This document shows positions 61,741-64,000 of a stretch of 64,000 nt of DNA, one piece after another. The position numbers and the translations under genes are program-made. Origin of the DNA: Solimonas flava DSM 18980. GTDB taxonomy: Bacteria > Pseudomonadota > Gammaproteobacteria > Nevskiales > Nevskiaceae. The notes under the pieces are model-generated. The model saw nothing but the letters and a program-made list of their open reading frames with translations. It was not told where the DNA came from and did no database searches. Position 1 is the stretch's first letter, and every line of letters begins with the position of its first letter. The DNA is taken from the NCBI RefSeq assembly GCF_000426685.1, contig NZ_AUFV01000002.1, forward strand, positions 1 to 64,000, in the 5' to 3' direction.

Positions 61741-61874
61741 CGCGAGCCTGAAGCGCCGGTTCGTCTCGGCCTCTGCATCGCGCGTTGCGGTGATGCGCCG
61801 CGTTCGCGGCATAACCATAGCTTCACGAATTCCTTCCTCGTGCGGTGGCGAGCTCCTAATCTCGCGGCCGCTAC

Positions 61875-61917
61875 GAGCCGTCCCGAGGCGTCTGTCATCC
61901 GGCAGGCGCGACGGCTC
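61875..61917 (+). promoter_or_regulatory. Leader hairpin before the rhodanese lipoprotein gene
   Basis: gagccgtc (61875-61882) pairs perfectly with gacggctc (61910-61917), and inside them gcgtctg faces caggcgc with one G-U pair. The element ends 23 bases before the ATG, just ahead of the ribosome site gaggaa. There is no T run, so it is not a simple terminator. A smaller dyad gccgcgttcgcggc lies at 61798-61811. Otherwise the 200-base gap after hldE is empty. Confidence 0.5.
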
Positions 61918-61940
61918 CCGGAAAACACGAGGAACAGACG

Positions 61941-63446
61941 ATGTCGAGAAGCTGGCGCCGCGACGGCGGGGCAGGGCGGCTTGTTGCCGCCAGCATGGGG
62001 ATCGCGATGCTCGCGGCCTGCGGCGGAGAGGACCGCTCCGGCGCCGAGACGACGCCGGCGGCGAGCCGGATCGTCAACACGCCGGCGCAGATCGCGCAGG
62101 AGTCGGCGGACGACTACGACGACAACCGCAGCGGTCTCATCACTGGCAAGACCCTGAAGCGCTGGAAGGACAACTGGCTGCAGGAGCGCCCGGCCGGCAT
62201 CAAGGGCAATCTGGTGATCTTCCAGATCGGCAAGGGCCCGGCCGGCGCCGAGTTCATCAAGGCCGACCACGAAACGGTCTTCTCCTACCAGGAGAACGCC
62301 TGGCAGGAAGAACGCTCGAACGGCGTGATCAAGACGCCCGGCATGGTGCTCTCCGGGGCGCAGATCGATGCGCTGCTGCGCCGCTACGGCGTCAATCCCA
62401 GCGAGGATCTCATCGTCTGCGCGCCGGGTACGGGCAGCGCGTCCAACGCGATGATCCAGGGTCGCTGCTGGTACACGCTGCGCTACTGGGGCGTCGCCGC
62501 GGATCATCTCGCCGTCCTCAACGGCGGCAATCAGTATCTGGCTTCGAGTGAAGGCGGCTGGAGCGCCGCTGATTTCTCGACGGATGCGAGCCCGGTGACG
62601 AACAAGTACGCCGGCAGCGTGCGCGACCTCAAGGAAGACAACACGGCGCTGCAGGCCACGCTCGAGGACGTCATCAACGTCCTGCCGCTGGAGGATGGCA
62701 ACCGCAGCACGGACGGCATCTTCCTGTGGGATGCGCGCAGCCTGGATCAGTTCAGCGCCGGCGAGCTGCTGGAGAGCGGCGCGCCGCCCGAGGGCTACAA
62801 CTACACCAGCAGCTTCCAGAACGGCGGCTCGCGGCAGGGCCATCCGCGCGGCGCGCTGCAGCTGCAGTACACCAACGTGCTGGTGAACGGCGGCGCGGAC
62901 GGACGCTACAAGTCCAAGGCGGAGATCAAGGCCTACCTCGACGGCGAGGTCGACGCGGCGGGCAAAGGCTTCCGCGACGGCACGCTGCAGCCGGTCGGTT
63001 CCGGCAACGCCTACCAGCCGGGGGACGTGGTCTACACCTACTGCGAGACGGCGGTGCGCGCGGCGATCACGACCGTCGCTAGCGCCGTGATCCTCGGCCA
63101 TCCGACGCGCCTCTACGACGGCTCGATGATCGAGTGGAACTCGCTGTCGTACATCGCCGACAAGAACGGCAACTTCATCCTGCCGGCCAAGTCGGTGTGG
63201 CGGACCGACGTGCTGTCGTTCTTCAAGCCCGGTGTGCAGGCGCAGATCGCGCCGCGCAACGACGCCAGCGCGACGCCTTACGTGGTCGATGCCAGCGCCG
63301 AGCATGCGGACGAGGCCATCCTCGCCGACAAGGCCTACGCACGCGCCAACGATCCGGTCGACGACGGCGGCACCACCGGCGGGACGACCACCGGCGGCAG
63401 CACCACCGGCGGCACCACGGCGCCGCCGAATCCCTGCGGCGGCTAG
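61941..63446 (+). CDS. Lipoprotein with two rhodanese-like domains
   Basis: 501 residues. The lipobox is LAAC with Cys27, so it is a membrane-anchored lipoprotein facing the periplasm or cell surface. A first rhodanese-like domain (about 35-215) has APGTGSASNAM where the active-site loop should be and lacks the catalytic Cys. The second (about 235-420) has a normal loop C-E-T-A-V-R-A with Cys368. The tail is a Thr/Gly-rich repeat (GGTTGGTTTGGSTTGG) ending PNPCGG. The layout recalls rhodanese lipoproteins of selenite/tellurite reduction operons (ExtH type), from memory only. Sulfur or selenium transfer in the envelope is the best guess. Confidence 0.75.
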   Translation: MSRSWRRDGGAGRLVAASMGIAMLAACGGEDRSGAETTPAASRIVNTPAQIAQESADDYDDNRSGLITGKTLKRWKDNWLQERPAGIKGNLVIFQIGKGPAGAEFIKADHETVFSYQENAWQEERSNGVIKTPGMVLSGAQIDALLRRYGVNPSEDLIVCAPGTGSASNAMIQGRCWYTLRYWGVAADHLAVLNGGNQYLASSEGGWSAADFSTDASPVTNKYAGSVRDLKEDNTALQATLEDVINVLPLEDGNRSTDGIFLWDARSLDQFSAGELLESGAPPEGYNYTSSFQNGGSRQGHPRGALQLQYTNVLVNGGADGRYKSKAEIKAYLDGEVDAAGKGFRDGTLQPVGSGNAYQPGDVVYTYCETAVRAAITTVASAVILGHPTRLYDGSMIEWNSLSYIADKNGNFILPAKSVWRTDVLSFFKPGVQAQIAPRNDASATPYVVDASAEHADEAILADKAYARANDPVDDGGTTGGTTTGGSTTGGTTAPPNPCGG

Positions 63447-63511
63447 CCGTTCCGTGCCGATGGGCGCGGCGTATGCCGCGCCCCTTCTTTCGCTCTCTCA
63501 TGGAGAATCCG

Positions 63512-63823
63512 ATGCGCCATGCCAGTCGCGCCGCGGCAGCGCTCTGCCTGTTCCTCGCCGGCCTGTCCGCCGCGCATGCCGACGAGCCGCGAGCGGCCGC
63601 CCGTGCGCCGGCCGCCGTCAAGCAGTACACCGTCAGCTTCGGTTCGCAGCCGCCGCCGCCCTCGTCGCGGCTCAAGTACCGCCAGGGCCCGGTCTGCATG
63701 TGCAGCGGCGGCCTGAGCGAGGCCGACATCAGCGCCGCGCAATCGCCGCTTCAAGCGTCCACCGCAGCCGCGGCGGATAGCGCTGAACCCACGCACGGTG
63801 CGGCCCGCGGAGAGACGCCATGA
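63512..63823 (+). CDS. Small secreted protein with a CxC motif
   Basis: 103 residues. A signal peptide (to about AHA, residue 20) is followed by an Ala/Arg-rich stretch, YTVSFGSQPPPPSSRLKY, then GPVCMCSGGLSEADI and an Ala-rich tail. The only cysteines of the mature part are the CMC pair. I recognise no family. A start four codons upstream (63500) is also possible. It overlaps the next gene by four bases and follows the rhodanese gene by 65. Confidence 0.65.
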   Translation: MRHASRAAAALCLFLAGLSAAHADEPRAAARAPAAVKQYTVSFGSQPPPPSSRLKYRQGPVCMCSGGLSEADISAAQSPLQASTAAAADSAEPTHGAARGETP

Positions 63824-64000
63824 ACAAGCTTCGTGGTCTCGGCCGCCGTGCCGGCGCCTGGCTCGGGCGCGGCCTGCTGTTGTGGTTGCTGCTGCTGCTG
63901 GTCGGTGCCGGCGGCTGGATCTTCTCGACCGCGGGCGAGCCGCCGCGCGCGGCAGCGCCGGCCGCCGCCTGGGGCGACGAAGCGCTGCAGGCCTGGGGCG
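63820..64000 (+). CDS. Membrane-anchored protein, 3' partial
   Basis: Sixty residues are visible before the window ends: a basic start (MNKLRGLGRRAGAWLGRG), one strong transmembrane helix (LLLWLLLLLVGAGGWIF) and an Ala/Pro linker starting a periplasmic domain. Function unknown. ATGA overlap with the previous stop shows it belongs to the same operon. Confidence 0.6.
   Translation, partial: MNKLRGLGRRAGAWLGRGLLLWLLLLLVGAGGWIFSTAGEPPRAAAPAAAWGDEALQAWG

Follow-up and report, generated by a model that had tools for sequence, protein, structure and literature searches.

To our knowledge, the route by which elemental sulfur or polysulfide crosses the outer membrane in bacteria has no settled answer, what the ext H-L cluster does in Geobacter is likewise unsettled, and no mutant phenotype is known for an ExtI homologue other than the one described in Geobacter, which concerns selenite and tellurite. 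In this genus, deletion of extI reduces selenite and tellurite reduction (PMC5877670), and ExtHIJKL present as the only conduit left allows partial metal-oxide reduction (PMC6148476). Among systems that handle sulfur, a cysteine relay has been described for YeeE-YeeD (PMC11073785), and in Desulfurivibrio dismutans a porin, rhodanese lipoproteins and YeeE/YedE are co-localised, for which polysulfide import was proposed (PMC12142623). A 2026 survey found complete YTD clusters confined to Desulfobacterota and Nitrospirota (PMC12998232), and the carrier arm of SoxY bears the motif GGCGG (PMC6067878). A coupled YedE-ExtI operon of Beta- or Gammaproteobacteria was not found in the open-access papers that our literature search covered, subscription papers lying outside that coverage.

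The locus described here begins at the end of the window, the 64,000-nucleotide stretch of Solimonas flava DNA that was analysed (bases 1-64000 of contig C2; genome 4.46 Mb, 99% complete). It is an operon of seven genes, in the order ExtH-like, CxC, triheme cytochrome c (here denoted C3), ExtI, YedE, TusA and ExtKL-like pentaheme cytochrome (C5). Three genes start inside the window edge and the rest lie past base 64000, where the continuation of the contig was read and positions are given as window-equivalents. The sequence-only reading of the window had pointed to this continuation as the place to look for cytochromes or a porin. The reading out gave the ExtI porin, YedE, TusA and two multihaem cytochromes, and the genes downstream of the window proteins (ExtI, YedE, TusA, C5) are not those of an unrelated pathway; what had been noticed is real, conserved and larger than the window shows. 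The same reading described the genes as packed with overlaps, which holds for CxC and C3, overlapping by 4 nt (ATGA), and fails at the extH to CxC junction, a gap of 53 nt; C3 and ExtI also overlap by 4 nt. Pfam searches with the continuation proteins returned Porin_O_P, Sulf_transp, TusA, Cytochrome_C7 and MtrC/MtrF-like domains. Downstream of C5 an unrelated papain-like gene starts at window-equivalent 68585 (68585-70834, 749 aa; a papain-family domain and, towards the C-terminus, a long part that resembles an alpha/beta hydrolase). The slot from hldE to this gene (window-equivalent 61741-68584) is variable across Solimonas: two species have the operon there, and operon-less relatives with readable flanks have other genes after hldE. 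An AhpD-like and an HxlR-like gene, assigned by eye, occupy it in G040 (L112), and an HDOD gene directly follows hldE in G039 (L114).

In the closest relative, S. variicoloris, the gene order is the same and the operon proteins are 95-99% identical. In a sample of 58 genomes of the GTDB family, Solimonas and Hydrocarboniphaga included, ExtI scored over cut-off in five, and the neighbourhood of the operon differs between genera. A scan of GTDB species for ExtI yielded 66 loci. All seven genes are present in 41 of the 45 loci of Beta/Gammaproteobacteria type; of the four others, three run off the ends of their contigs and one (L057) has no detected ExtH. The operon is not a chance grouping, because S. 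variicoloris keeps its order and 41 loci keep the whole set of genes. ExtI also occurs in 22 further loci (Desulfuromonadales, Nitrospirota, Acidobacteriota, Myxococcota and a few fragments), most of them Geobacter-type, and in none of these does the examined stretch contain YedE, TusA, CxC or C3. A DsrE-like trio joins 34 of the 41 complete loci, after TusA, and is absent from the loci of Solimonas, Hydrocarboniphaga and R. gelatinosus IM 151. Thiobacillus-type loci (L043-L107; e.g. L052:5330-6089 and L047:5360-6108) carry YedE, TusA and a DsrE-like gene with two small proteins that are, by position, DsrF-like and DsrH-like. In L047 and L052, which were examined in detail, a histidine kinase and a sigma-54 response regulator follow extI, and homologues of both occur in about 41 loci. 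The metagenome-assembled Proteobacteria bacterium G2_21 has two near-identical ExtH-ExtI loci on separate contigs (L097, L106). Carriage by a plasmid or virus was rejected: no viral contig proved to be related, and ExtI has no close homologue on a plasmid.

A long leader hairpin had been placed at the head of the operon by the sequence-only reading. This element (GAGCCGTC...GACGGCTC, 61875..61917, forward strand, upstream of extH) folds with -31.1 kcal/mol, which is not clearly better than shuffled sequences (z -1.87; 9 of 200 shuffles equally good). It was seen, by eye, in the near-identical sister species only, and a search of Rfam gave no match. We rejected a leader RNA element on account of the marginal fold, the missing Rfam family and the missing promoter match, and the hairpin is kept as a weak feature with no support for a function. 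Between extH and the gene for CxC lies a GC hairpin that resembles a terminator (63462..63483, forward strand) and is a possible attenuator. The block ATAACCATA upstream of extH (window 61811-61819; L042:7476; L060:7484) is common to this genome and S. variicoloris, occurs at a different locus in Solimonas sp. BWSM_106, and might be a regulator site.

The first gene (61941..63446, forward strand, 501 aa) encodes a tandem rhodanese lipoprotein with a LAAC lipobox (Cys27). One dead and one live rhodanese domain had been recognised from the window alone, correctly: the active-loop Cys368 (YTYCETAVRA) lies in domain 2, and domain 1, having no CxxxxR loop, looks inactive. The protein scores 104.2 bits against the ExtH equivalog NF040901 of NCBIfam (cut-off 200) and is thus homologous and below cut-off. 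PDB searches led to two-domain thiosulfate and mercaptopyruvate sulfurtransferases. The AlphaFold model is a confident tandem rhodanese (pLDDT 88.6), in which residues 480-501 fall below 50, and this tail is predicted to be disordered. It is Gly/Thr-rich and ends in PPNPCGG, Cys499 being the third residue from the C-terminus. Cys368 is invariant in 53 ExtH homologues (19-62% identity to the window protein), and Cys27 and Cys499 are each at least 90% conserved in the same set; every beta/gamma tail has the form N(P/G)CG(G), and most Geobacter-type tails have a cysteine at the end. The disordered tail with its conserved terminal cysteine is a new feature of ExtH, and by analogy its Cys-Gly-Gly end (NPCGG) resembles the GGCGG carrier arm of SoxY.

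The second gene (63500..63823, forward strand, 107 aa) is a real ORF and encodes, as had been proposed, a small exported protein with a signal-like N-terminus and a CMC motif, within the core SRLKYRxGPVCMCSGGLSEADI. That it belongs to no known family agrees with the Pfam and NCBIfam searches, neither of which gave a family match, and the protein has no family match to ExtJ; the small protein at the place of ExtJ in L085 lacks, by eye, the CxC motif. Its structure model consists of two helices only, at moderate confidence (pTM 0.29). The CxC family is found in exactly five of the 58 family genomes, the same five that hold ExtI and no others, a co-occurrence that is exclusive within the examined family only. 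It is a family of small CxC proteins without a model, defined by the operon. The third protein had been described as membrane-anchored, and the N-terminal inner-membrane anchor is there; its identity, a triheme cytochrome c with three CxxCH, had been missed. The C3 gene (63820..64000 in the window, 63820-64338 window-equivalent as a whole, forward strand, 172 aa) encodes an extra cysteine in NACGLGASSC, adjoining the first haem site and kept in 45/45. In searches against Ext profiles, no described operon was matched by all three proteins of the window: the ExtH-like protein is sub-threshold, CxC gives nothing and the only family matches of C3 are of generic c7 type.

ExtI (window-equivalent 64335-65528, 397 aa, GTG start) passes the NCBIfam model NF040900, "selenite/tellurite operon porin", with 349.2 bits (cut-off 150), and the beta/gamma proteins form a clade apart from other ExtI on a 100/100 branch. 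C5 (window-equivalent 67263-68495, five CxxCH) stays below the cut-off of NF040886, the ExtKL (seleno)cytochrome (56.4 bits, cut-off 250), and aligns with ExtKL over all five haem motifs (hhalign probability 98.7-99.3%). ExtKL carries its Sec in a loop that is replaced in C5, which itself has no Sec. A Sec-containing C5 was rejected, as the Solimonas gene needs no TGA readthrough and Sec is found in Geobacter-type ExtKL only. In eight Geobacter-type loci (L085, L088, L090, L091, L093, L094, L096, L103) a UGA within the motif GHSIPDG(U)PTPNR must be read through to give ExtKL; the Sec site lies in the loop after a conserved GH, which C5 has too.

The curated ExtI match, the ExtH homologue, the C5-ExtKL alignment over five haem motifs with its hhalign probability and the extI deletion phenotype of Geobacter (PMC5877670) would all fit a Geobacter-like operon for selenite and tellurite reduction, serving detoxification or respiration. 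Here the oxyanion would enter by ExtI, the ExtKL-like pentaheme would reduce it with electrons from the anchored triheme, and ExtH, YedE and TusA would deal with the reduced product or with sulfide needed for the reaction. We regard this as possible though rather unlikely: the ExtH and ExtKL cut-offs are missed, ExtJ is not seen, there is neither a Sec residue nor SelB, and every complete locus holds the sulfur-trafficking YedE and TusA, most of them also DsrE-like genes. The sequence-only reading had called the locus similar, not identical, to selenite/tellurite operons, and this description stands, with ExtI over its cut-off, ExtH and ExtKL below theirs and YedE and TusA added; the latter two suggest sulfur transfer as much as selenite. 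An outer-membrane electron conduit to extracellular acceptors or donors (metals, minerals), with ExtI as pore and the cytochromes as wires, is improbable. The MtrC/MtrF-domain similarity of C5 in Pfam and the partial metal-oxide reduction by Geobacter ExtHIJKL (PMC6148476) agree with it, but of the parts of Mtr/Pcc conduits the operon has neither a large multihaem, periplasmic and threading the porin, nor an outer-surface cytochrome, only proteins of 3 and 5 haems; ExtH is moreover a sulfurtransferase homologue, and YedE and TusA would be left without a role.

YedE (window-equivalent 65543-66980, 478 aa) matches PF04143 (Sulf_transp) with 149 bits. When it is aligned to 6leo of the PDB the three motif cysteines coincide, and they are present in 39, 40 and 41 of 42 homologues; against the NCBIfam TsuA models it reaches 106.3 and 68 bits, below both cut-offs (400 and 645). 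The cysteine of TusA (window-equivalent 66997-67248) is kept in 42/42 homologues, in the motif CPHV here and CPHP in L052, versus CPxP. The thiosulfate importer TsuA/YeeE of the PDB is a relative of YedE, whose cysteines fit the YeeE-YeeD relay. Pairs of YedE and TusA-like proteins are linked with selenium use, and YedE/FdhT and YedF models gave sub-threshold matches, as they might if the pair imported selenium for selenocysteine or selenouridine. Searches for SelB and SelD found none over cut-off in this 99% complete genome and were positive in two control genomes; selenium assimilation is therefore very improbable, and largely refuted. SoxB was also not found over cut-off in the S. flava genome. 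In the family, it is over cut-off in 0/5 operon holders versus 11/53 non-holders, and a link with Sox was rejected as unsupported in the family.

We lean slightly towards the operon being an envelope-spanning chalcogen capture-and-import system, most likely for sulfane sulfur, or else for species of selenium or tellurium, built on the ext H-I-KL core. This reading draws on the seven-gene set in 41 of 45 beta/gamma loci, on the fit of the YedE and TusA cysteines to the YeeE-YeeD relay (PMC11073785), and on ExtH, where Cys368 is invariant, Cys499 at least 90% conserved, the tail predicted to be disordered and its end SoxY-like. It also draws on the DsrE-like trios adjoining YedE-TusA in 34 full loci, many from Thiobacillus, on the lack of SelB or SelD over cut-off, and on the proposal of polysulfide import by porin, rhodanese and YeeE in Desulfurivibrio (PMC12142623). 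Gene content, conservation and the catalytic and relay cysteines are observed; the path connecting them is conjectural. The substrate (thiosulfate, polysulfide, colloidal sulfur, or selenite) would enter through the ExtI porin, and ExtH, probably an outer-membrane lipoprotein, would load sulfane sulfur on its rhodanese Cys368. From there sulfur could move to Cys499, the flexible tail acting as a swinging arm, and be handed to YedE in a putative ExtH-YedE contact; the three membrane cysteines of YedE would relay it to the TusA cysteine and the cytoplasm. The anchored triheme and the pentaheme cytochromes would exchange the required electrons with the respiratory chain, and CxC, a small protein, may act as a thiol relay or as a partner in assembly. 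Against capture and import stand the Geobacter mutant phenotype of the ExtI homologue, which concerns selenite and tellurite (PMC5877670), and, in Solimonas, an operon without the DsrE trio and a genome without SoxB, so that a downstream sulfur-oxidation route is without support there.

Ext-type systems may more generally handle sulfur. In a bolder and rather less likely reading, a surface rhodanese with a terminal swinging cysteine would strip sulfur from its solid or polymeric forms and pass it, by way of a dedicated porin-cytochrome assembly, to YedE-TusA, the Geobacter selenite/tellurite phenotype being a side reaction of such a sulfur system. If true, Beta- and Gammaproteobacteria would possess a widespread machine for acquiring sulfur that has gone unrecognised. 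The operon joins the question of sulfur entry across the outer membrane to that of the role of ext, with pore, sulfurtransferase, cytochromes and inner-membrane importer in one locus, and the named carriers Solimonas variicoloris, Solimonas fluminis, Hydrocarboniphaga effusa and Rubrivivax gelatinosus make its role testable by gene deletion.

Compared with extHIJKLMNOPQS of Geobacter sulfurreducens, the operon has in common the ExtI porin, an ExtH lipoprotein with terminal cysteine, an ExtKL-type pentaheme and a small exported protein among the genes; it differs in having no ExtJ by sequence and no Sec in the pentaheme, in adding YedE, TusA, CxC and the triheme, in gene order and in its own ExtI clade. 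No ExtM match was obtained in the genome, a weak negative, as the controls gave none either, and none is adjacent. The Desulfurivibrio grouping, likened here by description, shares an outer-membrane pore, an exported sulfurtransferase and YedE, by co-localisation only and with no CxC or triheme named. With the YTD cluster of sulfur-disproportionating Desulfobacterota and Nitrospirota (YedE, TusA, DsrE, Chp1-2) the operon shares YedE and TusA, whereas it lacks the DsrE trio and described YTD lacks porin and cytochromes; in Thiobacillus-type relatives the likeness extends to a DsrE-like trio. The YedE-TusA-DsrE-like set of these relatives resembles YTD in Beta/Gammaproteobacteria, despite the range given in PMC12998232; a search on the orthology of the trio with Desulfobacterota YTD gave a single weak match in a Geobacter-centred sample of 198 genomes, and two Nitrospirae showed DsrF-like matches. 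TsuA-TsuB (YeeE-YeeD), the thiosulfate importer, has the fold family, the three-Cys relay and a TusA-type partner in common with the operon, in which YedE is larger (478 aa) and misses the TsuA cut-offs and the partner has CPHV instead of CPxP. The SoxYZ carrier, like ExtH with NPCGG, has a terminal cysteine in a Gly-rich C-terminal tail (GGCGG); in ExtH the arm is fused to a tandem rhodanese lipoprotein, SoxB is absent, and no sequence relationship is claimed. The operon is thus near both the ext and the YedE-TusA systems and falls under the full definition of neither; it is a widespread and apparently undescribed variant of a known system.
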